Source: a virus
Length of the DNA: 40,227 nucleotides
Reading direction: 5' to 3' (one strand)
IMG/VR virus record: IMGVR_UViG_3300006754_000045
Coordinates: 1 to 40,227 of that record
This document shows, in pieces, positions 3,001-40,227 of the stretch (positions are counted from its first letter, which is position 1; each line of letters starts with the position of its first letter). The notes beneath the pieces were generated by a model, which did no database searches, was not told the origin of the DNA, and worked only from the letters and a program-made list of their open reading frames with translations. The position numbers and the translations under genes are program-made.

Positions 3001-6000
3001 TTAATAAAAATATGCTTGATCAGAATAAAGCTTCAGTTAAAACAGCATTTTTAAACCATGTCATGGAGAATAAAAAAAGACAAGCACATGTACATGGTAT
3101 GAATAAATCTTTATTTGATATACCTTTAATATCAAATACAGGTATTGAGACATTCACCTTCTTAGGAAAAGAGTATTCAATAAAAGGTAAAGGTAAAAAT
3201 TATAATTTAGATTTTATAGAAGAGGATAGAGTTTTAACTACTGATGTTGAGGTTTTACCTAATGGTAGAGTTCAAAACAATAGAAGATTAGTAATGGATA
3301 TGTATACTTTTACTCGTAAACCAGAGGTTATTACAGATGATACAAGAAATAAAGAGCTTCCTGATAATTTAGAAGGTGTAAATACTGATCCTATAGATGA
3401 TGAAACATTTAATCCAGACTTATTTGATCAGCCTATGGAAATCACTCCAGAAAATAGTAATCCAAAAGAGGTATTAAATGAAAAAGATGCGAGAGCATTT
3501 TTAGATAGAGTTTTAGGAGGCGCTGTTCCAGTTAGAATAAAAAATAAATTAGTAAAAATAGGAGAGCAAGGAACAGAGGTTTATGGGGCTTTTTCAGATG
3601 GTGTTATACAGTTATCTAGGTTAGCGCCTAAAGGAATAGAATTTCATGAAGCATATCATGTTGTAGAAACAGCGTATTTAACTCCTGGAGAGATCGCTGC
3701 TTTAAATAGAGAGACTGTAGGAAAGCATGGTGAACCTACAAATGCTACTATAAAAAATATAAAAGCTAAGTATCCTAAATGGAAGTTAACATCTAAGGAG
3801 GCTAGGCAAATAGCATTAAGTGAGATTAGAGCCGAGGAATATAGATTATATGAATCGTCTAAAAATGACGAAAGGCTTACTTTTAAAACTTTAGGAAAAA
3901 GAATTATGCGTTTCTTCAGGGAACTAGTTGATTATATAGTTCCTATGTTCTCTACTAAAAATGCTGCTACTATTTATAGTAGAATATCACGAGGACATTA
4001 TAGAAGAAAATCTGTTGCAGAAAATATAGCAAAAGAACTTAGAGGGCTGAGGAATAACCTAAAAGATGAACAAGCGAATGCGGGACTTATACCTGGCACT
4101 CCAGCACTACTACCAAATGACAAGGCGTTTCAACAGAGGACATTAAAGATAATAGAAGCTTTGAACAACAAGATTGAGGAGTTAGAAGCTAAATTAGCAA
4201 AAGAAGAGGCTAATATAGGTAATAAAATACTCTCTATGTCTATAAAAGATTTCTCTAAATCCGTAGAAGAAACAGCATTAGAAGAAGCTGGTTTTAATAT
4301 AGAGGATAGAAGTAATATAGCTACTGCTCTTATTGAGGCTTTAATAACGAATAAAGGAGGCGTAAGGAATATAAAATCTCTTAATGATATTAAGATTAAT
4401 GATAATATTCTTAAAGGATACTTAAGTTTTATACAAAAAAGAAGAAAAGAAGCAGGTAATGTAAATGTTGCTGATAATCTTGAAATAATTAAAGATAATA
4501 TAAAACACTTTTATAATTCAGAAGATAATACAGGTTTAATACTTGATATATTAGAGCAGTACAAGATAAGAATAGAAACAGAGGAGGACGCTAAAGGGAA
4601 TAAAGATGTATCCCAAGCTATGAGTTCACATTTTGAGTATAGTGGTAAAGATAATGCTGGTACTAATACAAAAATTTTATTATCCTTTTTAGTTAAAAAG
4701 AATGAAAAAGGAGAAAATTTAGTTGATGATCGTACAGGTTTAAATAAAATAGAGCGTTTCTCTATAGTGTGGAATGGTCTTGAAAAAGGTCTTTCTGATA
4801 TTACTAGTTATGCAGAATATACTAAAACGGGGGAAGTTAAGATTAATCATGCTTTTGATCTTATGATGAATAAACTAGAAGAGATGTCTTCTTTAGTTCC
4901 TTTATATACAGGACTTGCAGCTAGAATAAAAGGATTAGAAGAGAATGATCAAATCCGATTCTTTAATGCTTTTTCTAAGGCTTCTATGAATTTTGTTACA
5001 GCTATCGTAGATAAATGGGCCTTTCAACAAGAAAAAGAGGGAGAAGGTATTGTTAATATAGAACAATCTAATACACGTTTTATTGATCCTGCTGTACAAG
5101 GTAGAAAATTCATGATCAGAAAAAGATGGTTAGAGAACTTAAAACAAAAAAACTTCTTTATATTAAAAGATGAGGAAGAGAATTTAGATATTGATACAAA
5201 AGTATTAGATACTATATTAGAGTCTTGGAACTCTATAAGTGCTGAATATAAAGCTGAACTTAAACGTATGACTAGAGATATGGATATTAAAGTATCTCAA
5301 GAATATAAGCAAAATTTAATAGAAGACTTAAAAGTTTCTGGTATTACTTTATCTGAAATGGCGTTAGATATATTATTGTCATCTGAAAATACAGAAAAGG
5401 AATCATTAACAACTTTATTTTTAGGAGCGGGCCGTAATTTTGGAGTGCAAGACATATATATTAGAACAGCTAAAAGTAAACGAACGGGTAGAAATCCTTA
5501 TGATTTTAAAAGTATAAAAGTTAGGAGTGAAAATGATGCTATAACTTTAGATTTAAATTTTACTGAAAATAATCCTTTTTCGTGGGCAAGTTCTGCTATA
5601 AATACATTAGCTGAAGCAGAAGCTTTAGTTGATGTTAGTTTAGGACAAAGTAATATATTAGGGCCTCAAGGGAAGTCTTATTGGTTATACTCATTAAATA
5701 ATTACTTATCAAAACAATCTAATAGATTTAATGCTTCAAAATATGAAAGAGACGTTTTATTAAAAGACAGATGGGCGAAAGATTCCAATTGGCTAAAAGA
5801 ATTAATTTCTGGAGCAAAATTAAAAATAAGAACTTTTAATAATCTTAAATTATCTAATTCTAAAGATGAGGGTACAGGAAATACTGATTTAACTCCTTCT
5901 CAAGAGCATGCTTTTAGAATAAATTCTACGTTATTTAATATAGCTAGAGCTAAGGGATTATTATCTCCTCCTACTATGGCAGATAAATCCGTATGGAATC

Positions 6001-9000
6001 TAATAGAAGGAATGAAAACATATGATATTTTCGAAAATTCTGATTCAGGTTTTATATTAAGACCCGATGGTAGTATGAGAGTGGGGCATAATATAGCTAG
6101 AAAATTTGCAATATATGCTGCTAGCGAAATATCTAGAGTACAATCTGTACATGAGGACCTATTCGGTCAAAATGCTTTAACTGACTCACAGCTTATAGAA
6201 TATTATCATTATATGATGGAGAAGGGTAAAAAGAATAGAAGAAAAGCGAATGGTCTTAAATTTATATTATTTCCTTCTTTAACTACTTCTATTTTAAAAG
6301 ATATTGGAGTTATGACTGAGGATGGTGTATTTTTAGATAGTTGGGATTCTGATCTAGTTATTCCAAAATTAACAGAATTTGTTAAACCTATATTAGAGAA
6401 AAGAATTCTTGCAGAAGTAAACTTTGCAGTAGAAAATGGGGTAATAACAAAGACAGTAAATAAAGATACTATAATCTATAAGAATAATACTATTGCAGAT
6501 AGAATTATAAAGTTACATGGAGAAAAATATAAAAATAAAGGGGCACAGTTTAGAAGTCATTATGGGATAGGATTGGCTTTGGCTAATTATACTGTAAATA
6601 ATATGATTTCTTTTATAGAAACTACAAAACTACTCTCGGGAGATCCTGCTTTTTATAAAAATTTAGATGACCTTTCTAAACGTATGCCCGAGCTAATTGC
6701 TCCAGGGCAAGACTTAAAAATAATTGAAGGACATGAATTATTTACAGTTGCTGTAATTAGAGATCAGATTCTACCTAAATCAAAATATTATGATAATTAT
6801 ATTAAGTTTTTAATTGAAAAGAAGGGGTATTCTAGAAAGGCAGCTAAAAAGATATTAAAACCATATTTAAATGTAAATGTAACTGATGCACAAGCTTATA
6901 TAACACTTCCAAGGTGGAGGTCATTAATGCGTATGTTAGGAAAATGGGATGACAAATATGATCCTACATATTTTAGATTATTAAATGGAGAAATTGTAGA
7001 TGATACTAACTTTGATATGTTACTAGCACAACCTTTAAAAGGCATGCATTATGAACTTAGAAAAGGATTGCAATCTAAAGATGGGGGAACTAATCTAAAT
7101 ATACCTACATATTTAAAGTATTCTCAAGCTGTACTTATACCTGCTGCTATTCATGGAACGGAACTTCAAAAGTTATTAGATACTATGAATAGAGAGGGAG
7201 TTGATGAAGTTGTATTTGAATCGGGTATAAAAGTAGGCGCTTTAAGTCCTGTAGATATTATGCAGGATCATCAAACAGGAGAGTTGTCATCTAGTATAGC
7301 TCTTAATAAGTTTGTTTTACGAAATGAAAATTGGAAGTTACAACAAGAATTAAGCCCTCATACAGAAAATGAATCCTTAGAAGGATCACAAATTAAGAAA
7401 AGTATACTATCTAATATAGACTTAAACGCTGATTATATTGTCCCTGCAAAGATAGTAGAGGGTGTACAAGAGACTAAACGTATTTCTGGATATGAATTAG
7501 TAAAAGATCTTCATGAAATTGATAGAGCTTTAAGTGATATTGAAAAAGATGCTATAATTAATGAATGGGGAATAAGTGTATCTAAAGTTGATGATGTTAC
7601 AGGACAAGTAATGTATAATATAGAAGATTATACTAAATTACATTCTATTTTATATTCATCTTTCAAGAGAAAAAAGAATACGCCCGCAAAATTATTAAAA
7701 TCTTTAGCTTTAAATGAAGCTGGATCAGGATTTGCAATAGACATAAGTTCACATCCTTTTATGAGGGATATAGAAAATATGATAGGAGCTATGATAACGG
7801 ATAGGCTTATAAAGTTAAAAATGCCTGGAGGATCTTTTATACAGCAAAGTAACTTTGGTATGCAGCGAATGGCGGCTTGGTCAGATCTTTCTATAAAAGA
7901 TCAAAGAGAATTAAGTAAACAAGTTAATGAAAAAGGTTTAAGTCCTTTATACTATAGTAAAAATGGCACAGTACGAGCTCAAATATTCTTACCGAGCTGG
8001 TTTAAAGAGAAACATGTTCCTGGGCATAAAAAAATGTCTAACGAGCAAATTAAAAAATATATAATAGATAAAAGGTTATTACGAGCAGTTGGGTATCGTA
8101 TTCCAACTCAAGGTATGAGTTCTATAGATTCTTTTGATATAGTAGGATTTTTACCTAAAAGTATGGGAGATACTGCTATTGTTTATGATGAATTTACATC
8201 TAAAACTGGTGCTGATTTTGATATAGATAAATTATATTTACTTTTACCTTCATATGCAGAATCTAAAAAGGGCTTATATTATGTAAATTATGATGGAACT
8301 AAAACAATAGAGGAGAATAGAAAAGCTAGAGGTAATAGAACTAATTTATTCAAAAAATCTTTACGAAATAGAAAATTAGAGTTATATCAATCTATATTAA
8401 GTAGTGTACATACTTTTGATCAAGTAATAAATCCACTTGATTCTGAAGATATAAAAAACAATGCTGCAGAGGTTAGATATTTAAAACTTAAACACACTCT
8501 TACAGATAAAGAAATACAAGAAATTGAAGCTTCGAAAGGAACTGAAGATTTCTATTCTACTGTAAGTGATATTCTTATATCTAAGAATGATCTAGAATGG
8601 TTCTCTCCTAGATACCAAATGGAAACTAAAGAAAAGTTTTTAGGTGGTAAATTTGGTGTTGGACAAGAAGCTAGACATCTATCTGATCATGGAATTTCAC
8701 AATGGTCATTTGAGAAAGAAGTAGAATCTTCTTATTTCTTAAAAGGAAGAGATATTGGATTAGGGCATATTACAGAATTAGGTAATACAGATTTATCTAA
8801 AATATTATCTACTAATGGTTTATTAATATCTGGAATTATGTCGGCTAGATTAGATGCTTATGTAGATATAGCTAAGGATCCATATATATTTTATTTAAAT
8901 AATAATGCTATAACGGCTAATACAGTGGCTTTAATGGATAGAGCAGGCGTTAATCCTGAATGGACCAATAAGTTTATGGGATTAAAAGTTATCACTGATT

Positions 9001-11981: not shown

Positions 11982-14900
11982 ATGGCGTGTGTATTTGTAG
12001 TTAAAGATCCTATTACAGGAGAAGAAGTAGATAGTCTTTTATATAAAGACTTGGTAGAATACTATAATTCTGAAGCTGAAGCAGAGTTAGCGTATAGAAG
12101 TGCTATAGATTCTCCTAAGTTTTTAACTGAGTTTGGAGATTATCATAAATCCCCTTCTAATTATTTGTTAACAGATGAAAAGGGTAAGCCTAGATTAGAT
12201 AAATATAATGAACCTTTTGCATCAGATGTTGTAAAATATTATGCTAATTGGGAATTATCTAAAAAATCTCATAATATTAATGAATTAAAAAATGTTACTA
12301 CCCCTGGTTTAGCTAGACTACAAAAGGTAGTAGATACTCTTACAACACGGTTACATAATTTAAGACGTGTGAAAAAAACAATTCATGAAAAAGAAAAGCT
12401 TAGAACACAAATTGGAAACCTATTAAAACAAATAGGAGAGGCTAACGAAATTAGAGGATTTGTAAATTATACACGGAATGCTGTTACAGAAGTAAACCAT
12501 TTATTAGATTCTTTAATAGAGCATGATAAGTCAGGAACTCCTTTTACAGCAGCGCAATTAGGGCATATGTTTAAAGTAATACAGTCTTATAGAGATGTAA
12601 ATAGAATATTAGGGGAGGCACAACAGTTAGAAGATTCTAAAGACTTAGAATTAGGTAAACAATATTACTTACCCAGTATAGTTATCAAAAATTTAAATAA
12701 TCTTAAAGATACTTTAAGTAAGTTAGAAAATGAATATCAAAAGCGTGCTCTAGAGTCTGTAGCGAATAGTATTATGGGGTCTGATTATCAAGCTAATGCT
12801 AGAGAATTTTATAGAAGATCATATGCAGAGACCGCGGAAGGAAAGAGACGAAAGGATGAAACTAATACTACTTATAGAAAACGTATACAAGAACATGTAG
12901 ATTTGAAAATGCAGGATAATTCTGTAATTATAGAAAAAGATGCTAAAGAACATATTATGCGTTTATTATCTGCAGGAATAGATATTACATATTTAGAAAG
13001 GTGGGCATTAAATGCTAGTAATACAACATCTCCTATACTTAGATCTTTAAATCACTTTATATTAAAAGCTGAGGACATCGCTAGATTGACATGGATTAAA
13101 TTTGCTGAAGAGGGAGATATTTTGTTTCGTAGATATAAAAAGCATATGAAATCTTTAGGAAAGAATGAAAATAACTTATCAGAGTTTTTTGAATTAATAG
13201 GTGAAAGATCATATGATAAAAATGGTAAGTTATCAAAAAAAGGTACTGGATGGGTAACACATAGATGGCATAGTGTTTGGCACACAGATTTAAAAACTAT
13301 AAGACGGGCTATGTCTCAAATAAGAAAGAAGGCTACTCGTAATGCTCTTGGACAAATAGATCCAACAGCATCTATTAAGGATAAAAAATTAAAAAGAGTA
13401 TATGATGCATTAAGAAGATTATACTATGTTAATAAAGATTATGATGCGGATCCTGCTATAGCTAGACAAAAAGAAAGAATTTCTGCGTCTTATGAAGGGG
13501 TTCGAGACTTAGAAAAAGCAATACTTAAAAAACAAAAAATAGTAGATACTTTAAAAAATTTAGAGAATCTTACAATGGAACAATCAAATAGAATACCTAA
13601 ATTAGAAAAGGAATTGTATGAAGCTTTAGAGCAAAGAGCAAAATTATTATCAGATGCTGTATCGCTTGAGAATAATTTAAGAGATGAATTCTTTAATTTT
13701 GAAGATATATATCATGTGCCTAATTTGAAAAGGATAAGAGCGGATAAGAAAGATCTACAAAGATTATTAAAGAGTGTTAATATTAGTTTTGATTTAGCAG
13801 TTTCTACTGAAATGTATAAGTCTCCTCAGTATGAAGAAATACATAATGAGAGAAAAAAAGATGCGCAAAGTCCTGTGTATGAATATTATAAGAAGTTTGT
13901 AATGAAAGGTATGAAAATGCGGGATAGTGTAAGACCAGAGGAATTTAAAACTGGATTTAAATACGATGCTATACGAAAAGTTCTTTGGGAGAGATTTGAT
14001 GATGTGCGACAAGGAGAGAAACCTATTAACAATGCTTGGAATAATTGGACTAAATCTTATTTAAAAGAGATATTTACATATACTAAAGGTAGAGATATAG
14101 AGAGTGGTGTACAGTTAAAAGCAATAGGAGAAGCTATAGATACTAAAATAGATTATGTTCCTATCTTTTTTACTAAACAAATAGATTTAAAAGATCAGCA
14201 AATGCATTTACATCAGAATTTATTAGTTGGTAATTTTGTATCAGTTAATTATAATGAAAAAAATAAGATTTTACCTTATATTGAAATGCTTATGTCTGTT
14301 GTTCAAAATAGAAAAATAATAAAAACTAAAGGGTTTCAAAGAATATTTAAAAACTTATCGGGTGTAGTAGCAGATGCTATTGGTAAAAGTCTTAAAAAAG
14401 AAAAGAAACAAGAATCTAATACATATGCTAATGCTATGGATCTAATAGCATCAAGAATTTTCGGAGAGACAGTTCAGGAGGCAGGTATTACATTACCATT
14501 ACCTTTTACAGAGTCTAGATTATCAATACGACAATTGTGGAATTTATGGTTAAGTGCTACAAGTACTGTATTATTATCTGCAAATTGGATGTCTACTATA
14601 AGTAATAGAGTTTTAGGAGGAACTTTACATCTTTCAGAAGCACTAGCTGGTGAATTTTTTACAACTAAAAGTATGCTTAATGGTCAGAAATATTATATAC
14701 AAGACGATCCACAAATAATTAATGATATTGGTAAGCCCTTTCCTATCTCTAAAACAAATTTATTAGGTATGTTATTTGATCCTTTAAATGATTATTCTAT
14801 GTATGGTCATCAATATGCATACAATAATAAAATGAAAGCTTTATTAAATACAAATACTTTACATGGTTTGAACAATATGGCAGAGCATGCTATGCATCAT

Positions 14901-16058
14901 GTTGTTATGTACACGGTCTTAGCCGAAACAAAAGTTCTAAACAAGGAGGGGGAGTATATCAATAAAAGCGGTAAAGGTATTACGAAGGATAGAACTAAAG
15001 CAATGGATTTAGCATCTATGTATAAAACTGAAAAAAGAGGAGAAGAAGGGCATAGAGGATTAAATTTAGATAACAGAGTTCATCAGATAGAATATAGAGT
15101 AGCAGAAACTTATTATAAAATGCCATTAGTGGGCAAGTTACATACTGATATGAGTATAAGAGCTGAACAAGAAGAAACTAATATGCATGCCATAATAAAA
15201 CTTACGCAACTAATTCAAAAAATAAATGAAATGGAGCATGGTGCGTATTCACAAAGAAACGCACCTCCTGGTAGAAGACACGCTTTATTTCAAGGATTAG
15301 AAACAATGCGAAAGTTCTTTCCTGTAGGTATAAAACATAGATTACAAGGAATTGGAACAACTCTTCTTAATTTATTTACTAATTTTCCAGAGTTTGCAAG
15401 AACTAGGGGAAATGCAGCTTTTTTTAAAGATTCTGCAAAGTATTCAAATGATTCTACTAAGATATATGATCCTATAACTAATAATTTAAAAGAAAGTCAT
15501 TATGTAACTACTTTAAAATATTTTGCTTTTTCTGCATATCATGGTATGAAAAAATTAGGACAATTGTGGGCACGAACTCATGATGACACATATCAAGTTA
15601 AGAAAGGAATTCTATCTATGAGTAAAGAAGAGTGGGGAAATATGTCTAAACATGAAAAAGCAAACATAGTAAGAACTTTTTATGAAATAGGATTAGCAAT
15701 GGTATTAATGCAGGCAGCTCACGCACTTAAAGATCGTGGAGAAGAAAAGTCAGATTATATGTTTGCTTTCTTTATGGCAAGATTATCTACTGAATTGCTG
15801 GCGTATTCTAATCCATGGGAAGCGGCTAGGATATTACAATCTCCTGCAACTACTACAACTTTTATTGAACGTATATGGACTTTTATGGAGCAATTAGGAG
15901 AAGATATCTGGGCTGGTGAGTGGGAAAGATATAAAGCTGGATCTAGAAAAGGACAAACAAAAACTTCTAAGAACCTTGGAGATATAGTTCCTTGGCACAA
16001 AGCAGTTAATCGTCATAAATATGTTGAAGATATTTTAAATTACCATTACAGGGAATAA
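11982..16058 (+). CDS. Large virion-associated (probably ejected cargo) protein
   Basis: A 1358-residue protein starting 3 bases after the stop of the polymerase gene, so co-transcribed and probably translated by reinitiation. It has no enzyme motif I recognise. It contains coiled-coil stretches at about 105-150 and 504-570, an otherwise charged helical character, and amphipathic or hydrophobic segments at about 850-880 and 1231-1255 (LAMVLMQAAHALK) that might contact membrane during DNA ejection. Crassvirales carry very large proteins next to the virion RNA polymerase, and structural work on phiCrAss001 showed such proteins as cargo inside the virion; this gene has the right position and size. 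The role is inferred from context only. Confidence 0.6.
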   Translation: MACVFVVKDPITGEEVDSLLYKDLVEYYNSEAEAELAYRSAIDSPKFLTEFGDYHKSPSNYLLTDEKGKPRLDKYNEPFASDVVKYYANWELSKKSHNINELKNVTTPGLARLQKVVDTLTTRLHNLRRVKKTIHEKEKLRTQIGNLLKQIGEANEIRGFVNYTRNAVTEVNHLLDSLIEHDKSGTPFTAAQLGHMFKVIQSYRDVNRILGEAQQLEDSKDLELGKQYYLPSIVIKNLNNLKDTLSKLENEYQKRALESVANSIMGSDYQANAREFYRRSYAETAEGKRRKDETNTTYRKRIQEHVDLKMQDNSVIIEKDAKEHIMRLLSAGIDITYLERWALNASNTTSPILRSLNHFILKAEDIARLTWIKFAEEGDILFRRYKKHMKSLGKNENNLSEFFELIGERSYDKNGKLSKKGTGWVTHRWHSVWHTDLKTIRRAMSQIRKKATRNALGQIDPTASIKDKKLKRVYDALRRLYYVNKDYDADPAIARQKERISASYEGVRDLEKAILKKQKIVDTLKNLENLTMEQSNRIPKLEKELYEALEQRAKLLSDAVSLENNLRDEFFNFEDIYHVPNLKRIRADKKDLQRLLKSVNISFDLAVSTEMYKSPQYEEIHNERKKDAQSPVYEYYKKFVMKGMKMRDSVRPEEFKTGFKYDAIRKVLWERFDDVRQGEKPINNAWNNWTKSYLKEIFTYTKGRDIESGVQLKAIGEAIDTKIDYVPIFFTKQIDLKDQQMHLHQNLLVGNFVSVNYNEKNKILPYIEMLMSVVQNRKIIKTKGFQRIFKNLSGVVADAIGKSLKKEKKQESNTYANAMDLIASRIFGETVQEAGITLPLPFTESRLSIRQLWNLWLSATSTVLLSANWMSTISNRVLGGTLHLSEALAGEFFTTKSMLNGQKYYIQDDPQIINDIGKPFPISKTNLLGMLFDPLNDYSMYGHQYAYNNKMKALLNTNTLHGLNNMAEHAMHHVVMYTVLAETKVLNKEGEYINKSGKGITKDRTKAMDLASMYKTEKRGEEGHRGLNLDNRVHQIEYRVAETYYKMPLVGKLHTDMSIRAEQEETNMHAIIKLTQLIQKINEMEHGAYSQRNAPPGRRHALFQGLETMRKFFPVGIKHRLQGIGTTLLNLFTNFPEFARTRGNAAFFKDSAKYSNDSTKIYDPITNNLKESHYVTTLKYFAFSAYHGMKKLGQLWARTHDDTYQVKKGILSMSKEEWGNMSKHEKANIVRTFYEIGLAMVLMQAAHALKDRGEEKSDYMFAFFMARLSTELLAYSNPWEAARILQSPATTTTFIERIWTFMEQLGEDIWAGEWERYKAGSRKGQTKTSKNLGDIVPWHKAVNRHKYVEDILNYHYRE

Positions 16059-33058: not shown

Positions 33059-33084
33059 ATATGTATTTTACTCATTCTATTCTT
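33059..33084. repeat. 26-bp direct repeat, copy downstream of the mini-tmRNA
   Basis: Identical to 33198-33223 over all 26 bases. Its last base is the final T of the plus-strand TGG that encodes the CCA end of the tRNA-like element, so it abuts the RNA 3' end. On the minus strand its GAATAGAATGAG can pair with CTCAATTCTATTC at about 33004-32992. Confidence 0.9.
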
Positions 33085-33197
33085 GGTGGACAAGGTGAGA
33101 TTCGAACTCACTTCCTGTAGAAATATATAGTGATAAGAACCACTATAGATTATTGTATAAATCGTGATACTAATACAGTCAAAGCCATCTCTTGCCC
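33084..33197 (-). ncRNA. Mini-tmRNA-like RNA: tmRNA-type tRNA-like domain without a messenger region
   Basis: 111 nt plus an encoded CCA. On the minus strand: acceptor GGGCAAG (33197-33191) pairs with CTTGTCC (33094-33088), with a G3-U70 pair and discriminator A, the alanine identity set. A 12-base D-region AGATGGCTTTGA follows, then helix 2 CTGTA/TACAG (33178-33174 with 33119-33115), linker GAA, T-arm GTGAG-TTCGAAT-CTCAC. The full tmRNA at 35158-35581 has exactly the same spacing (7, 12, 5, linker 3, 5-7-5) and D-region ACTTGGATTTGA. Where tmRNA has pseudoknots and tag frame, this RNA has 54 nt with hairpins TATAGTG/CACTATA (33147-33141 with 33132-33126) and GTAT/ATAC. No canonical anticodon arm exists, so it is not an ordinary tRNA. 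Function unknown. Confidence 0.75.
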
Positions 33198-33778: not shown

Positions 33779-34109
33779 GTTATATATATTTTAAGTTAGT
33801 AAAAACACCAATTAGTCCAATACCTACGACTTGCACGCCAAGGTCCACTTTGTCGTAATTCCAAATATGGAATTTTGTACATCAGTTACGATCTGTCAGC
33901 CTATCTATCTTCGAATTAACATAAGTATAGGTATATTTGGATCTAGAAGTTGTGTCTCGAGACAGAATAGATAGTATTGTTAAGCCTCATCGCCACGTCA
34001 AGGCTTGGTGATTGATAAATGAGGTTCAGGACCTGCGTAGCTCTTCGTTATATGTGTCTGCGCAAATGCATTACTTATAATCGGTCGACTATGAGGTCCT
34101 TTTAGTTTC
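33779..34109 (-). ncRNA. Structured 330-nt leader or ncRNA
   Basis: Gene-free and folded on the minus strand. Helices visible: AGGACCT with AGGTCCT enclosing a TGCG/CGCA stem near the 5' end; AAGCCT with AGGCTT; CTATCTAT with ATAGATAG, enclosing the palindrome TGTCTCGAGACA; and TCGTAA with TTACGA enclosing hairpin AATTCCA-TATT-TGGAATT. It ends in TTTTTACTAACT about 20 bases before the next ATG. Could be a 5' UTR regulator or an independent RNA; no known class recognised. Confidence 0.55.
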
Positions 34110-34567: not shown

Positions 34568-35128
34568 TTAACATATTTGAAATCCACCTGATTCTTTTGC
34601 AAACTTTGCAAACTCTATAGCATTTTCCACACTAAATGGATATGATGCAGCCCACGCTTCACGTTTACCGTCTGTACAAACATTACATTTTCCTTTCACA
34701 TATTTATCATTACGTATTCCTGTACCATTACAATGAGTACAATCTTCTTTTTCCAGTTTAGCAATAGCCGCTGAGTATTTTTGCGCATACTTATCAAGAT
34801 TACCCGTCTTATTCTCTTTCATTATACGTGCAGCTATCTTAATAGCTTTAGTTTTAGATATAATAGCGGCATTATTATAGCCACCTTTTTCCATATCTTT
34901 TTGAGTTAATATATTATCACATATATTACATACATACTCCCATAATGGTCTCCACCACCATACATTGTTTCTAAAATATATACCAGGATTAGCTTTTTCA
35001 TATGTATCGTTAGCTTTCCAGTAATCGTCATGAACATCTTTAGGCATACTGGCCCAAGAATGTTGTTTTAATATTGCAGGTTCTGGCTCGTTAATTTTAG
35101 GAGCCAAACCGTGTAAATCAAATCCCAT
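34568..35128 (-). CDS. Conserved phage protein with zinc-finger-like CxxC pairs
   Basis: A 186-residue protein of a type seen often in phages, beginning MGFDLHGL and having YFRNNVWWWRPLWEYV at about 51-66. A C-terminal pair CTHCNGTG and CNVCTDGK (about 133-156) resembles the DnaJ-type zinc finger CxxCxGxG. An additional CNIC is at about 67-70. The family is widespread but uncharacterised; zinc binding and protein or nucleic acid contact are plausible. It follows the tmRNA gene by 29 bases on the same strand. Confidence 0.75.
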   Translation of the reverse strand: MGFDLHGLAPKINEPEPAILKQHSWASMPKDVHDDYWKANDTYEKANPGIYFRNNVWWWRPLWEYVCNICDNILTQKDMEKGGYNNAAIISKTKAIKIAARIMKENKTGNLDKYAQKYSAAIAKLEKEDCTHCNGTGIRNDKYVKGKCNVCTDGKREAWAASYPFSVENAIEFAKFAKESGGFQIC

Positions 35129-35157
35129 AGTAATTGTTTTTAATAGTTAATAAAAAG

Positions 35158-35581
35158 TGGAGGTGGTGGGGTTCGAACCCACGTCCATACAGTATCCACA
35201 TAAATAGATGTACAAGCTTTTAAGTAATTGAATTAATTTTTAACCAAGGCTTCTGATAGTCATCAGACTCCATATCCGTAGCCGTTACACGCATTACTCA
35301 CGAATGTAACTTGAACAGATCAACCATCGCTATATCTAGCCGCCTGGTGAGATAAATCTCATTTGTATTAAGTAACAAAGTTTGATCATTAAAATACTTT
35401 TGTAGAAACTACCTAAGCAGCTACTGCAAGTTCTACACTTTGTAGTGGTAGAGCACTAGCGACAAAGCTGTTCCCTATTGGAAAGAACTTCGCGACTTTA
35501 GCATAACTATTTTCGCCAGTTAAAAAGCATCGTTGCTTGCCATTTATACTTCTCAAAGTATGTCAAATCCAAGTCACCCCC
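35158..35581 (-). ncRNA. ssrA: Transfer-messenger RNA (tmRNA), phage-encoded
   Basis: A 424-nt tmRNA. Acceptor GGGGGTG (35581-35575) pairs with CACCTCC (35165-35159), with the G3-U70 pair recognised by alanyl-tRNA synthetase and discriminator A at 35158; the CCA is not encoded (CTTTTT follows). D-region ACTTGGATTTGA, helix 2 CATAC/GTATG, linker GAC and T-arm GTGGG-TTCGAAC-CCCAC are all present. A PK1-like hairpin region precedes the resume codon GGC at 35517-35515. Later hairpins include CTGAT/ATCAG and GAGAT/ATCTC of the pseudoknot region. It rescues stalled ribosomes together with SmpB, which is not encoded here and must come from the host. The tag is unusually long (see 35413-35517). Confidence 0.95.
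35413..35517 (-). other. tmRNA tag reading frame, 34 codons
   Basis: From resume codon GGC to TAG. The tag begins GENSYAKVAKFF, whose first residues match the GEN-Y-A type of Bacteroidota tags, and ends SVELAVAA, a hydrophobic -AA ending like the degradation signal of E. coli tag ANDENYALAA. Usual tags are about 8-15 residues; this has 34. No stop occurs at the place expected after residue 9 or so. Confidence 0.8.
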
Positions 35582-35586
35582 GTAAG

Positions 35587-35763
35587 TTATAGTTTAAACT
35601 TATATTTTTTAATTAGTTTATCGCGCATTCTAATTAATGTACTTTTACATGCTCTTGGAATCTCATAGGTTTCATTTTTATGCATAATATGTCCTCTATG
35701 TCCCATTTTACTAATGGTTTGTTCCAAGTGTTTACATATTTCTAGAGCTCTTTTTTTACTCAT
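35587..35763 (-). CDS. Small basic protein of unknown function
   Basis: A 58-residue frame, MSKKRALEICKHLEQTI and ending DKLIKKYKFKL, with high Lys/Arg/His content and two predicted helices. The ATG has an A/T-rich leader (CTAAATTTATTTAA) like its neighbours, and the stop lies only 5 bases before the 5' end of the tmRNA. Basic composition suggests nucleic acid binding; its position next to tmRNA makes an RNA-related role conceivable but unproven. Confidence 0.6.
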   Translation of the reverse strand: MSKKRALEICKHLEQTISKMGHRGHIMHKNETYEIPRACKSTLIRMRDKLIKKYKFKL

Positions 35764-35778
35764 TTAAATAAATTTAGA

Positions 35779-35880
35779 TTAATAAAAACTTATAACAGAG
35801 CCGAAAAGCTTAAACGACAATAGGCCAATTAAAACCGATTTATCTAAGCTTTTCTGCCCCGCTATAAGCGAACAATCGGA
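35779..35880 (-). ncRNA. Long RNA hairpin with loop pseudoknot
   Basis: On the minus strand 35868-35845 pairs with 35812-35789: 24 positions with a single A-G mismatch and three G-U pairs that are allowed only in minus-strand RNA, so the fold is of the transcript and not of the DNA. In the 32-base loop AATCGG (35840-35835) is complementary to CCGATT (35879-35874) just 5' of the stem, giving an H-type pseudoknot. TTTTTATTAATCTA follows. A 49-codon frame overlaps it but is probably incidental. No known class recognised. Confidence 0.65.
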
Positions 35881-35920
35881 AGCTACTAAATTATTAGCTG
35901 CTTCCATCCAAGGGAAATTG

Positions 35921-36298
35921 TTAAACATAAAATTCTTGAACTCTTTCTCCATTTGTTGTCATACCTCCATATCCAGGTATGTGTATACCGTGCTCACTTA
36001 ATGCCCATACTACAATTTGTTCTGCAGTAGCTGGACCAATACCTTTATGACCAAGTATTTGACCATAAGATATCTTCTTTAGATCTTCTACATAATGAAT
36101 ATTTAATGTATTTAAACATTTTTGTGCTCGCATAGATAATGGAGACATATTTACTTGTTCTGGTAGTGTAGCCATTCCATTAGATTTGTGTTTCTCGATC
36201 TTTTCTAATAGTTCAGCATTAGGATTATGTTTTCCCCAGCCTAATCGAAATAAAATAATAATAGTAAAAGTTAATAACCCAATAATTAATAGTATCAT
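35921..36298 (-). CDS. Membrane-anchored protein with RNA polymerase alpha C-terminal-domain-like helix-hairpin-helix
   Basis: A 125-residue protein. Residues 1-18 (MILLIIGLLTFTIIILFR) form one membrane span. Residues 53-105 align without gaps to the alpha C-terminal domain of bacterial RNA polymerase: LSMRAQKCLNTLNIHYVEDL against E. coli [20 protein letters not shown]. Arg57 (E. coli Arg265), Cys61 (Cys269) and Gly88 (Gly296) are kept; Asn268 is Lys60, Lys298 is Ala90 and Ser299 is Thr91. In the host this domain binds UP-element DNA and activators. A generic helix-hairpin-helix is the alternative. It overlaps the upstream gene as ATGA. Confidence 0.75.
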   Translation of the reverse strand: MILLIIGLLTFTIIILFRLGWGKHNPNAELLEKIEKHKSNGMATLPEQVNMSPLSMRAQKCLNTLNIHYVEDLKKISYGQILGHKGIGPATAEQIVVWALSEHGIHIPGYGGMTTNGERVQEFYV

Positions 36299-36780
36299 AA
36301 TAAAGATTTTAATTTAGTTAATAATTGATTGCTGTGTGCTTTGTAATGTTGAAGTAATTTATCAACAATACATAAGAATGTAGAGTTATCTACACCGTCA
36401 AGGCTGGCTTCATAATACTCAGATTCTTTATAACCATCTTTATGGTCATGTATAGAGTCATCTATATTACTTAATGCGTCAACAAATTGACTTGGATCTT
36501 TAGATTCTCTTAAAGCTTTAAGCAAATCTTGGGGTCCTTTTTTGTCTCCAGTTTCTTTATCAACTGGAGGTGTTACTTTAACGAATATTTGAATATCTAT
36601 TTTAGCATCTTCATGTTTAAGTGATAGACGTGCCATATTATCCAATTGTTCGCTATATTTCTCGGTGTTTTCTAAATCTTTTAAAACACTATTACTATTC
36701 TTTAGTATTTTACCAATTCCCCGAACTGTACTGATTGTTTTCTTTGCCATATTGTAATTATTTAAGTTATAAAGATACAA
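36295..36780 (-). CDS. Protein of unknown function
   Basis: A 161-residue frame; the start may be the second ATG (MAKKTIST, residue 11, at 36750), since the first ten residues are Asn/Tyr-rich and look untranslated. The rest is helical and charged with a strand segment AKIDIQIFVKVTPP at about 58-71. A Lys/Leu-rich C-terminus. No family recognised. It overlaps the alpha-CTD-like gene by four bases (ATGA), so the two are coupled. Confidence 0.65.
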   Translation of the reverse strand: MYLYNLNNYNMAKKTISTVRGIGKILKNSNSVLKDLENTEKYSEQLDNMARLSLKHEDAKIDIQIFVKVTPPVDKETGDKKGPQDLLKALRESKDPSQFVDALSNIDDSIHDHKDGYKESEYYEASLDGVDNSTFLCIVDKLLQHYKAHSNQLLTKLKSLL

Positions 36781-36811
36781 ATAATTGTTTAATTATAAGG
36801 GTTAAAATTGT

Positions 36812-37330
36812 TTAAAAATCATTTTCACTATTATTTATGTGTACTAATAGTTTTTCTTTAGATATGAAATCTTTAGGATCCATAGATAAGATACTATTTA
36901 TATGATTTTCGTATTCTTCAGAGTTATTTGTACAACCATCTGCAACACATTCTTTATTGTGCTTCTCTTGCATATCTTTGATCATCTCCTTAAGAGGAAG
37001 ATCCTCAAGATTAAAGCCTTTATCAGATAAAGTAGATGCAAATTTTCGTGCTACAGCTCTAATGGCATCTTTTGTTGCTCCGTCAGAATCTCTTTCTGTT
37101 ATAAATTGGGCTAAGAAGAATGCTGCAAAGAACCCATCGTCTGTATTTTTAATTGTGCCATTCATTTTCAGTTTATTAAGAGTAGCTTCTAATATCTTAG
37201 ATTTAGAAGTGTCTTCATCTGAATTTTGTAAAGCATCATTAAATGCTTCAATTGTTGCTTTTTGTTTTGCTCTTTCAAATCCAACCGCTTTGCCAACGCT
37301 GTCAGAATCGTGATCATACCTGTTTCCCAT
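36812..37330 (-). CDS. Protein of unknown function, acidic
   Basis: A 172-residue, mostly helical, acidic protein: MGNRYDHDSDSVGKAVGF at the N-terminus, a helical core with DGFFAAFFLAQFITERD at about 65-81, and a Cys pair (ECVADGC) near 129-135. No family recognised. It is the first gene after the 1-kb RNA region and has the leader TTATTAATCTAAAAACAATTA. Confidence 0.65.
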   Translation of the reverse strand: MGNRYDHDSDSVGKAVGFERAKQKATIEAFNDALQNSDEDTSKSKILEATLNKLKMNGTIKNTDDGFFAAFFLAQFITERDSDGATKDAIRAVARKFASTLSDKGFNLEDLPLKEMIKDMQEKHNKECVADGCTNNSEEYENHINSILSMDPKDFISKEKLLVHINNSENDF

Positions 37331-37356
37331 GATAATTGTTTTTAGATTAATAAATT

Positions 37357-38399
37357 GTTCTTAACCCTAGTAACTGAATACTAGGATTAAGATAAGAATA
37401 CAGATGACTACTCTGTGTAACAGGATTGAATGCTTCGACTTTCGAAGCTCCCATCTAAGTCTGCGAATAAGTTTAACTTTATTCATAATTATATAATGGG
37501 CTGAGATTACACCACTATACACATATCTTTCGTTGTTTAATTCCTGGTAGGGTTTACAACTTATCCACTATACTCTCGTATAGTAATATGCAATGACGGT
37601 TAGTTAGACTAACCACTTCTAATGTTATTAACTACTCACAATTTACTCGATCAAAATATAAAGCCGCTAAACTCTATATCTGTCTTTTAACTGTAAACAG
37701 AATCACCTTGAGGGATCATCCGCTCTGACTTACCGAAGTAGTCAGATTTAGTCATCTTTCGTCAATAACAAGTCAGCACTTTCTCTTTTGGTTAATGTTA
37801 CCCAGGGAATATCCCTAGGTTTCTCGTCTATTTTGAGCAAGTAGTGGCTGATCCAACAATTGCTTCGTCTCCTTTTGAGAGACAAAATACAATACTACTC
37901 ACGTATACCTTTCCATCGGTATGGTATTAGCCGTGATAATCCTATTCCCTAGGACTACCGTGCGTACTGATTTATACCACTAACTAGATTGGAATCTAGA
38001 TCGCAATTAAATCTACAGTTTGTCTTATTGATGTCACCATCTCACTACCTTAACCAAAAGATAGCACACATACTCTCAGGGATTCCCCCATTGATGCCGT
38101 GTGATATACTGCTTGCCTGGATTGACCAGAAATCTCATTGAGAATTCTAGGCAACATTAATAGCATAAACGTACTATTAATGTCTTTAGGTATATTGCTA
38201 TACTTATCGGGCCAGGCCCCTGTGCTTGATAGAGAAAACCCAAAAGAGGGATTTACAACTCTACACAATCCAAGGTGATATTCAAGTCAACACCTTGACG
38301 CTCTAAGCTTAATGTCTATTTATACTCGCTCAGACGAGTAACTGCTTTCTTTCTCCTAGTCAAGGATTGTGTTACTGATATTTATACTGTCTTAGCACC
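37357..38399 (-). ncRNA. Large structured non-coding RNA, about 1.04 kb, class unknown
   Basis: No credible gene in over a kilobase inside an otherwise packed block, and base composition less A-rich than the genes. Perfect local hairpins include 38155-38164/38175-38184 (about 10 bp), ACTATAC/GTATAGT near 37567-37584, GGTTAGT/ACTAACC near 37598-37614, CTAGAT/ATCTAG near 37984-37999, CTGACT/AGTCAG near 37725-37745, GTCTC/GAGAC near 37867-37883 and TACTCG/CGAGTA near 38322-38340. A 9-bp long-range stem ACACAATCC/GGATTGTGT (38263-38271 with 38364-38372) encloses two hairpins; TTGCCT/AGGCAA (about 38113-38155) closes a three-way junction. Scale and location near tmRNA resemble ornate large phage RNAs such as GOLLD and ROOL. 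Strand is inferred from neighbours. Confidence 0.7.
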
Positions 38400-38651
38400 T
38401 TAACAGTTTTTGCGTCTATTGTGTAATCGCGACATTTTATCGCTATCCCACGCTCTTTGTAACTTATCTGTATATTTACTTAAGTAGATAAATATAATGC
38501 ATGATAACATTGCAATAGCACTTAGTAATACTAAATACTCTTTATGTTCAGGACTTCCTGTAAATACTACTAGAAAGAATCCTATAAAAGCAAATATTGC
38601 TATAAATGCAAACAAATGTGCTACAATCATATAAAATATAACTTTTTTCAT
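38400..38651 (-). CDS. Small membrane protein with two spans
   Basis: An 83-residue protein with two hydrophobic segments, about 4-32 (FYMIVAHLFAFIAIFAFIGF) and about 39-58 (LVLLSAIAMLSCIIFIYL), and a basic C-terminus (RLHNRRKNC) that should stay in the cytoplasm. No family recognised; a holin-like or superinfection-related role is conceivable but nothing shows it. The stop adjoins the start of the 1-kb RNA region. Confidence 0.65.
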   Translation of the reverse strand: MKKVIFYMIVAHLFAFIAIFAFIGFFLVVFTGSPEHKEYLVLLSAIAMLSCIIFIYLSKYTDKLQRAWDSDKMSRLHNRRKNC

Positions 38652-38656
38652 AAGTA

Positions 38657-38767
38657 TTAAATTAAAATGTATTCATAAAAGCCTTGATCACAGTCAAACC
38701 CACGTAGTTGGTAATCTTTACCATTGTATGTGAATGCTGGACCTCGATAATCGCTAAATCTTAACAT
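38657..38767 (-). CDS. 36-residue small protein
   Basis: A frame coding MLRFSDYRGPAFTYNG and ending FYEYILI, rich in aromatic and Gly residues and with one Cys, compatible with a small beta structure. The ATG overlaps the stop of the preceding 67-residue gene (ATGTTAA), typical of coupled phage genes, and the stop lies 5 bases before the next ATG. Not recognised, but the tight fit supports it. Confidence 0.55.
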   Translation of the reverse strand: MLRFSDYRGPAFTYNGKDYQLRGFDCDQGFYEYILI

Positions 38768-38964
38768 GTTGGACAATCTAAATCAGCCCATTTAATATGT
38801 AAACTAAAGCATACTTTTAGTATAATAATATGACAAGCCCAGTTAGTAAGTGATCCATCAAGTATAATTCCACCACCAAATGACCCTCTAGTCCAGTCTA
38901 ATTTAAGTCCTACTCTTATCTTGTTGAAAAGTGTTAAATCTAATAATTCCTTGGTTTTAAACAT
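38761..38964 (-). CDS. Small protein of unknown function
   Basis: A 67-residue protein with basic N-terminus (MFKTKELLDL), a glycine-rich RGSFGGGIILDGS segment at about 26-38, and a Cys-containing C-terminus (DLDCPTC). The hydrophobic middle HIIILKVCFSL could be a strand pair. No family recognised. It is coupled to the 36-residue gene downstream. Confidence 0.5.
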   Translation of the reverse strand: MFKTKELLDLTLFNKIRVGLKLDWTRGSFGGGIILDGSLTNWACHIIILKVCFSLHIKWADLDCPTC

Positions 38965-39006
38965 AATTGTTCTTTTTTAAAGGTTAAATAAAAGTAAACA
39001 TCAAGG

Positions 39007-39033
39007 ATGAGTGTGCTTTTACACACACCCATC
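39007..39033 (-). other. Intergenic hairpin
   Basis: In the gap 38965-39067, GTGTG-CTTTTA-CACAC (39011-39026) is extended by GATG/CATC (39007-39010 with 39030-39033). It lies between the 189-residue gene and the 67-residue gene. There is no U-run, so a processing or regulatory site is more likely than a terminator. The rest of the gap shows nothing. Confidence 0.4.
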
Positions 39034-39067
39034 GTTAATGTATTGGTATTAATCTATCTGTTCTTCA

Positions 39068-39637
39068 TTATCCTAATTCTTCAGGTTTAGAGCCAGTCGC
39101 TACATCGTTCATTTGTTCGTTACGAGTAGTACCACCTGTAACATCTCCTTCGTTACCCATTATCTCTCCAGTATCTAAGTCAATGTTACCTAAATCAGAC
39201 ATATCGTCTTCATCATCTAAATCGTGACCATTAGATTTGAATACAGATGATATAGCTTCATTCTTAAGAACAACTAAAGAACAAGAGTCAACAGTTCTGT
39301 CTCCAACCATATAAGCAGGCACCTGTCTAGTAACGATGTCACCAGGTATTGGTTTACCTATAAAGTTCTTGATTAAAGAAGGGTTACCACTTTTCCATAC
39401 AGGATTGTCTGCTGAATCAGTAGTTTGTGCAATCACTCTAGTTCTTTCAACTCCAAATGGATTTGAAGGGTCTCTAAATGTTGCAATGTAATACTTACGA
39501 CCGTCACTGGTCAAGTTTAATTTTCCGTCAATACCATCTTTATCATCTACAACAGTAGCGTCTGGTTTTGAGGATAGTCTCAGTGAAGTTAATAATAGTT
39601 TAGCTTCAGCTGAAATTGTTTCGAGATTTCCACTCAT
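39068..39637 (-). CDS. Protein of unknown function with acidic C-terminus
   Basis: A 189-residue protein. A strand-rich middle (KYYIATFRDPSNPF, TRVIAQTT, GDIVTRQVPAYMVG) suggests a compact beta domain, possibly OB-like, followed from about 140 by an acidic and polar tail (DLDDEDDMSDLGNIDLD). Strand-rich core plus acidic tail is reminiscent of single-strand-binding proteins, but no SSB tip is present and no family is recognised. The leader TTATTAACTAAATATTTAAATT precedes the ATG. Confidence 0.6.
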   Translation of the reverse strand: MSGNLETISAEAKLLLTSLRLSSKPDATVVDDKDGIDGKLNLTSDGRKYYIATFRDPSNPFGVERTRVIAQTTDSADNPVWKSGNPSLIKNFIGKPIPGDIVTRQVPAYMVGDRTVDSCSLVVLKNEAISSVFKSNGHDLDDEDDMSDLGNIDLDTGEIMGNEGDVTGGTTRNEQMNDVATGSKPEELG

Positions 39638-39662
39638 AATTTAAATATTTAGTTAATAAAAA

Positions 39663-40227
39663 GGTTGATGATTTACGTTAATAAGATATAATAGAACACA
39701 ATGTGAACAGTGACCAACAATGTTGGTGTGTTCAACAGATTATTATTACGAATTTCATGTCCAGTCTTACATCGAAGTGCAGAGTAGGTAACAATTCATT
39801 GGTTCAAATCCGTGTACATTGTGCTATATTATATCAATCAGTGTCTCAGGGAAAGAGATACATAATGTCTTAATTATGGTCTTTGAGACCAAGTGTGTCC
39901 AATCACTCTCAAATTTATCAAAAGATGAGATTATTGTCCAATAATTAGTAAGAGTGATTGAATTTGGATACAATTGAACAAGAATAAGACGATAAACGGT
40001 GGAGTTTCAACGGCAAATACCAACTTTGTCTTTCATAATTGCTCATCCGTATGCAGATAAGTCTAATCATACTAATCGATCGTCAGTTCTATGGTCCTTT
40101 GGATGTGTTGTTCCCACAAGTTTATCATCTTTCCTGTTCTGATTGTGCCTAAGTAATACTTAGGTGATCCCGTTTAGTTATAGAGGTAAGGTTTGTGATC
40201 AGTACACCCTTACTTATCTGACACTTT
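39663..40227 (-). ncRNA. Structured gene-free region running off the window
   Basis: 565 bases without a credible gene. Stems: CACAATGT/ACATTGTG (39697-39704 with 39816-39823), enclosing the two-part hairpin TGAACA/TGTTCA plus CCAAC/GTTGG (39704-39734); CAATCACTCT/AGAGTGATTG (39900-39909 with 39951-39960), enclosing ATTATT-GTCC-AATAAT; CCTAAGT-AAT-ACTTAGG (40148-40164); GGTCT/AGACC near 39879-39890. The strand is uncertain: minus is assumed from neighbours. It may be a second large RNA of the type at 37357-38399, cut by the window end. Confidence 0.5.

Follow-up and report, generated by a model that had tools for sequence, protein, structure and literature searches.

What positions 37357-38399 of the virus record IMGVR_UViG_3300006754_000045 encode, and how their product would be set free from the phage transcript, are the questions raised by this locus. 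The whole record (40,227 nt) is referred to here as the window. In a preliminary description the interval was said to be filled by a structured RNA resembling the GOLLD/ROOL type, which was matched to no class and assigned to neither strand, and to hold no credible gene. The phage itself is crAss-like according to protein matches: its 1358-aa protein (11982-16058) resembles those of crAss-like phages, including Bacteroides crAss phages and Cellulophaga phi14:2. Searches against Rfam detected three RNAs in the window (GOLLD, Pistol and tmRNA), all on the minus strand, and a permissive RNA scan of 34900-40227 returned nothing further credible inside the interval and no other large RNA family. 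The interval is a GOLLD RNA with an adjacent, probable processing element. This composite nature had been missed at first, as had the Pistol and a 39-aa frame. The features are as follows.

35155-35581, minus: tmRNA (Rfam, 75.2 bits)
37359-37392, minus: terminator-like hairpin of 14 pairs where the 39-aa frame ends
37367-37486, minus: reading frame immediately past GOLLD for a single-pass membrane peptide of 39 aa, kept in L004, L005, L007 and L008
37498-37902, minus: GOLLD 3' domain, the part modelled by RF02032 (cmscan 215.9 bits, E 6.6e-60, model positions 1-416 of 416)
37661-37674, minus: hairpin with a 4-nt palindromic loop in relatives (alignment columns 572-577)
37791-37836, minus: variable linker of the 3' domain (alignment columns 395-440, strong length variation among relatives)
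37903-38219, minus: GOLLD 5' domain of the window's lineage, from the first conserved helix on (aligned relatives)
38115-38217, minus: first 5'-domain helix, GCCUGG (38217-38212) with CCAGGC (38120-38115) (covariation)
38220-38268, minus: leader of ~49 nt remaining on GOLLD after the predicted Pistol cut (sequence comparison)
38264-38339, minus: Pistol self-cleaving ribozyme (RF02679, 69.4 bits, cut-off 34.5)
38400-38651, minus: frame for an 83-aa membrane protein upstream of Pistol and GOLLD (weak Pfam match to 8xMP, 22.7 bits, below the cut-off of 30)

The match to RF02032 covers the whole model and exceeds the curated cut-off of 150 bits, and the earlier guess is thereby given its class. 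Ahead of the modelled part lies a 5' domain, the helices of which occupy the first ~330 alignment columns and covary among 14 relatives. What the window contains is hence a complete two-domain GOLLD RNA, running on the minus strand from ~38219 to 37490 amid small genes of the same strand; both the elaborate conserved structure of 5' and 3' domains and the phage setting of the family were found. For the minus strand of 37490-38268 the folding energy is -230.2 kcal/mol compared with -189.6 +/- 8.0 kcal/mol for 20 shuffles (z -5.05), whereas the plus strand of the GOLLD region gives a weaker z of -2.75.

Relatives were gathered by GOLLD-pattern scans, one neighbour-protein scan and one flanking-element scan, which led to 44 IMG/VR GOLLD records including the window. 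Two 640-kb phage records with confirmed GOLLD (LR756502 and LR745206) brought the total to 46. GOLLD scored above the Rfam cut-off in L001-L010 and in 16, 9 and 5 further loci, and L056, L069 and L070 were recognised by whole-core homology. The close lineage, defined by the window's 5' domain, comprises 16 distinct sequences (17 records), L009 being identical to the window over 1805 nt and counted once. The locus L047 matched the 5'-domain pattern but resembles coding DNA and was excluded before counting. A GOLLD pattern scan of bacterial genomes produced four stretches, none of which was confirmed by cmscan; likewise, GOLLD was found in none of 148 genomes of one bacterial phylum under strict filters and in none of five crAss-like records searched, two of these with a named host.

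Covariation was assessed over the whole RNA in 14 of the 16 close-lineage sequences, L069 and L070 having been found later. RNAalifold proposed 168 pairs, 79 of them with compensatory changes. After 5'-3' closing pairs had been swapped for a local first helix, the final structure consisted of 166 pairs in 26 helices, with 97.3% of cells paired. Changes on both sides were seen at 83 pairs, as against a shuffled mean of 48.2 +/- 3.3, a number reached in none of 500 shuffles. When partner columns were slid by 1-3 positions, pairing fell to 35-43%, although this comparison is favoured by a structure built from the same alignment. The first helix is paired in all 14 sequences (100% of cells), four of its six pairs being changed on both sides, and it marks the 5' boundary common to the RNAs of the close lineage. 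A coding explanation for the core was ruled out, since the longest stop-free run in six frames of the 16 cores amounts to 87 codons and no reading frame is conserved across them. Two of the conditions named in the preliminary description as refuting it, missing covariation and conserved reading frames, were not borne out for the core.

The absence of a credible gene thus holds for the RNA core but becomes doubtful at 37367-37486, and the last ~130 nt of the interval, with the 39-aa frame and the terminator-like hairpin, probably do not belong to GOLLD. Five of 16 loci, among them the window, have the frame. Comparison of its codons with those of L007 gave 2 silent and 10 replacing changes, by which purifying selection is not shown. 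It may plausibly be a real gene. Of the 15 close-lineage sequences with downstream DNA, 11 have a frame for a small membrane peptide behind GOLLD.

At the other edge, the Pistol lies ~50 nt ahead of the first GOLLD helix. With 69.4 bits in the window and in L002, and 67.6 bits in L007, all three score far above the cut-off of 34.5. In the Rfam alignment P1, P2, P3, the P1-loop pseudoknot and the 2-nt junction are all intact in the window. The two nucleotides of this junction are variable while its length is strict, as stated in PMC4604425, and by the rule given there the cut is predicted between A38269 and U38268, in the junction between P3 and P2. An A precedes the predicted cut in the window and L002, in place of the consensus G of Pistols. 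The pseudoknot reads CUGAGC/GCUUAG in the window and CAUAGC/GCUAUG in L007, and the innermost P2 pair is A-U in the former and U-A in the latter. Such compensated changes indicate selection on the Pistol fold. In L007 the stop codon of the upstream gene and the first GOLLD helix are separated by 78 nt, of which the Pistol fills 67; a separate promoter would not fit into this gap, and only ~6 nt lie between the predicted cut and the helix. Across the 46 GOLLD records (3,503,121 bases) there were four Pistol matches from three distinct phages, all at the GOLLD 5' edge; none was found in the 29 records outside the close lineage. Pistols are also present in other phage contigs without GOLLD.

The strand of the cut site (38263-38271) has a 9-nt perfect complement upstream of the Pistol (38364-38372), which may represent an off-state or chance; about two such matches are expected by chance (1043^2/2/4^9), and it was not seen in L007 by eye. 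This may be the 9-bp long-range stem reported in the preliminary description. The conserved closing helix is, however, the one formed by 38212-38217 and 38115-38120.

The 5' edge of GOLLD is not occupied by the same module throughout the close lineage. Among its 16 sequences, three carry a Pistol (window, L002, L007), five a candidate HDV-like element, one a doubtful hammerhead-like motif and seven no recognised ribozyme (L004, L005, L008, L010, L055, L069, L070), where 3/16 and 5/16 come from scans with patterns of the window and its kin and are not a census. In trees of both domains L007 clusters with the Pistol-less L004 and L008 (support 97/99 and 99/96), away from the window and L002. At least seven module changes are required on the 5'-domain tree and at least six on that of the 3' domain (16 rows). 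The GOLLD 5' boundary is a site of module exchange while the core stays. The window and L002 are 97% identical in their 5' domains and 80% in their 3' domains, which points to recombination between the domains. In L004, L005, L008 and L010 a homologue of the gene at 39068-39637 lies directly upstream of GOLLD with no ribozyme; between them a hairpin and a T-rich tract were noticed by eye, so that GOLLD may have its own promoter there. One might expect every GOLLD that has no promoter to itself to come with a ribozyme, but L069 and L070 led us to abandon this rule: their GOLLDs begin 15 and 28 nt past a stop codon, respectively, neither with a recognised ribozyme.

The HDV-like element, first spotted by eye beside GOLLD, adjoins its boundary in L018, L048, L049, L050 and L056. 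The last 60-odd nt follow the helix order P1-P2-P3-P1'-P2' in a nested double pseudoknot, with CUAA or CCAA ahead of P2' and a C at the place of the catalytic C. In an alignment of seven sequences all 17 pairs are held in every one, six of them being double-changed, a result reached in 0 of 500 shuffles. A descriptor scan of the loci revealed 7+7-bp forms only in those five and in L063 and L066, two records without a GOLLD match, and a weak 6+5 form in L014. An Infernal model, which leaves the pseudoknot helix P2 unpaired, hit ten places at E <= 0.01: five adjoin GOLLD, two are a copy 3.9 kb off in the window and in L009, and the remaining three (L057, L063, L066) have no GOLLD shown adjacent, L057 lying outside the GOLLD search. 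Judged from its sequence, the element is a candidate ribozyme. Membership in the theta ribozymes was rejected, since P1 begins with C in all seven sequences, G1 thus being absent, and no HDV-type match was returned by Rfam up to E 10 for L018, L048, L049 and L050.

In L063, where no GOLLD accompanies it, the element (4380-4446) directly precedes the start codon (ATG) of a protein gene; other settings for it therefore exist. The copy in the window (33962-34024, minus) is a partial core (29.1 bits, E 0.0066) with no clear P2 partner, located immediately behind a fold of tRNA size with AGGACCU/AGGUCCU as its closing stem. The hammerhead cleavage triplet follows the NUH rule. At the same GOLLD boundary L051 has a hammerhead-like core, CUGAUGA...GAA, with a non-canonical cleavage triplet; a firm hammerhead was rejected here, as the pair preceding the cut has the opposite orientation to that rule and Rfam gave no hammerhead up to E 10.

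The model to which we assign a probability of roughly three in four as a whole is that the adjacent Pistol cuts GOLLD out of a longer transcript. It is built on the identity of the GOLLD RNA, its covarying structure, the intact Pistol, the fixed adjacency of the two in three distinct phages and the exchange of 5' modules, all of which were directly observed. GOLLD would be co-transcribed with the upstream small genes on the minus strand, and this co-transcript would be cleaved by the Pistol in vivo between A38269 and U38268. The cut would free GOLLD with a defined 5'-OH end near its first helix, presumably for maturation of the RNA, and would at the same time remove the upstream coding RNA. 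The released RNA might then assemble into cages like its family. With an intact Pistol directly at the front of GOLLD, the phage probably trims its giant RNA by RNA catalysis alone. Several observations count against the model. To judge from L069 and L070, GOLLD can do without a ribozyme within a run of genes; a Pistol accompanies GOLLD in only 3 of the 16 close relatives and in none of the 29 other records; A rather than the consensus G stands before the scissile bond of the window; and the upstream 9-nt complement of the cut region could hinder cleavage.

Elsewhere, tRNA processing could free GOLLD in like manner. Outside the close lineage a tRNA-Met was located by ARAGORN 9-18 nt downstream of GOLLD in 8 of 27 IMG/VR loci. 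In LR756502 a tRNA was likewise reported 9 nt downstream, a tRNA-like gene being visible by eye upstream too, and in LR745206 ARAGORN placed a tRNA-Met upstream of GOLLD.

The Pistol might instead act for the upstream genes, leaving a 2',3'-cyclic phosphate end on the small-protein mRNA or lowering its level, with GOLLD merely located behind it. In keeping with this, the window, L007 and L049 have related upstream membrane-protein frames (E 2e-6 to 0.008 in pairwise comparison), the order of small frames, Pistol and GOLLD is conserved in the window and L007, and Pistols occur in phage contigs lacking GOLLD. However, the Pistol keeps to the GOLLD 5' boundary in each of the three distinct phages, with only ~6 nt from cut to helix in L007, and in L018, L048 and L050, where the upstream genes are others, that boundary is taken by another structured element, so that this explanation seems improbable. 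RNA islands of phages often contain ribozymes, and these phages do carry a tmRNA and further structured RNAs; Pistol and GOLLD could thus be unrelated passengers of an RNA-rich region, their adjacency being historical. To this we give very little credence, as all four Pistols in 3.50 Mb lie at a GOLLD edge, the compensated changes argue for selection on the Pistol fold and another candidate ribozyme substitutes at the same place. That the interval belongs to some other giant RNA class, ROOL or a new one, is scarcely credible in view of the whole-model GOLLD match (E 6.6e-60) and the lack of a rival large RNA family in the permissive scan, even though the 5' domain is outside every Rfam model and the window's lineage scores ~100 bits lower than most other IMG/VR GOLLDs.

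Excision of GOLLD by the adjacent Pistol may be one instance of something wider. It is conceivable, though we advance it only tentatively, that unrelated ribozymes (Pistol, HDV-like and perhaps hammerhead) have repeatedly been recruited to the GOLLD 5' boundary for an RNA-only excision of the cage RNA, with tRNA genes doing the same in other loci, and that GOLLD forms a self-maturing, membrane-linked compartment tied to translation, comparable to OLE RNA with its membrane partner. This reading of GOLLD draws on the adjacent small membrane peptides and on the tmRNA present in half of the GOLLD records.

The tmRNA of the window, the proximity of which had been noted correctly in the preliminary description, was identified by Rfam; neither a tmRNA nor a tRNA was reported in the window by ARAGORN. 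Over the Rfam cut-off, tmRNA occurs in 23 of the 46 records, a count taken in GOLLD-bearing records only, and a link of GOLLD with translation is possible from this co-occurrence. Several further RNAs were observed in these phages. A 114-nt RNA of the window (33084-33197, minus) has a tmRNA-type tRNA-like domain and little room for a tag frame; it scores 45.3 bits with RF00023 (cut-off 47) and is flanked by copies of a ~26-nt direct repeat. The tmRNA tags AESHSSALPLQSVELAVAA and VESHSSALPLQSVELAVAA come from L010 (746-1158) and L008 (10790-11199), and a frame of the window, 35413-35556, has the same letters, ALPLQSVELAVAA, at its end. In the GOLLD-bearing contig L042 a tmRNA (7880-8474) is overlapped by a group I intron match of 96.2 bits. 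Tracts resembling tRNA ends were seen by eye at 39680-39830 of the window, a stretch with no Rfam or ARAGORN match.

The cage structures of GOLLD are known. An adjacent ribozyme would provide an exact GOLLD 5' end and allows one to ask whether cage assembly needs a defined end. For Pistol ribozymes, the maturation of a large noncoding RNA would be a concrete candidate role. Among the matches listed in our literature search, from which subscription-journal papers and a 2014 Yale dissertation were outside the scope, there was no report of GOLLD with a Pistol, hammerhead or twister ribozyme. GOLLD and Pistol are each known; among the papers listed, none described their combination or the exchange of 5' modules with a candidate second ribozyme class.

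Several features are shared with the env-38 GOLLD, the cryo-EM structure of which is described by Kretsch et al. 2025 (PMC12286853). The 3' domain of the window matches the whole Rfam model (RF02032), a separate, less conserved 5' domain precedes it in both RNAs, and the RNA of the window is phage-encoded like known GOLLDs, a family whose function is not known. Unlike env-38 in that description, the window has a self-cleaving ribozyme at the 5' edge and no tRNA by ARAGORN. The env-38 RNA forms 14-mer cages in vitro, with a disordered linker at 497-538 and, between the half-shells, a symmetric kissing loop, L21a on P21a (PMC12286853). A length-variable linker is likewise found ~70 nt into the 3' domain in the window's lineage, whereas the hairpin that should correspond to P21a with its kissing loop L21a (13 model positions, linked by position arithmetic and not by a structure) is deleted from the window in the Rfam alignment, so that its half-shells would have to meet through a different contact. 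A palindromic loop (GATC, CTAG or GGCC) was seen in four of five distinct versions of the hairpin at 37661-37674, the window's version having none (binomial 0.004, the loop having been chosen among 16), and its changing palindromes are suggestive of a self-kissing contact.

With theta ribozymes, as described in PMC10879173, the HDV-like element shares the helix order and the CNAA stretch before P2', but its P1 starts with C instead of G and its partner is GOLLD in place of a tRNA. A precedent for ribozymes as RNA-maturation signals in phages is provided by the theta ribozymes located next to tRNAs (PMC10879173). The Pistol of the window agrees with its family (RF02679, PMC4604425) in a match to the whole model with twice the cut-off score, the three stems, the pseudoknot, a strict 2-nt junction and the phage setting. 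Its junction is AU instead of the consensus GU, and it differs from the Pistols described there in its location, where it probably serves to process the 5' end of a giant noncoding RNA.
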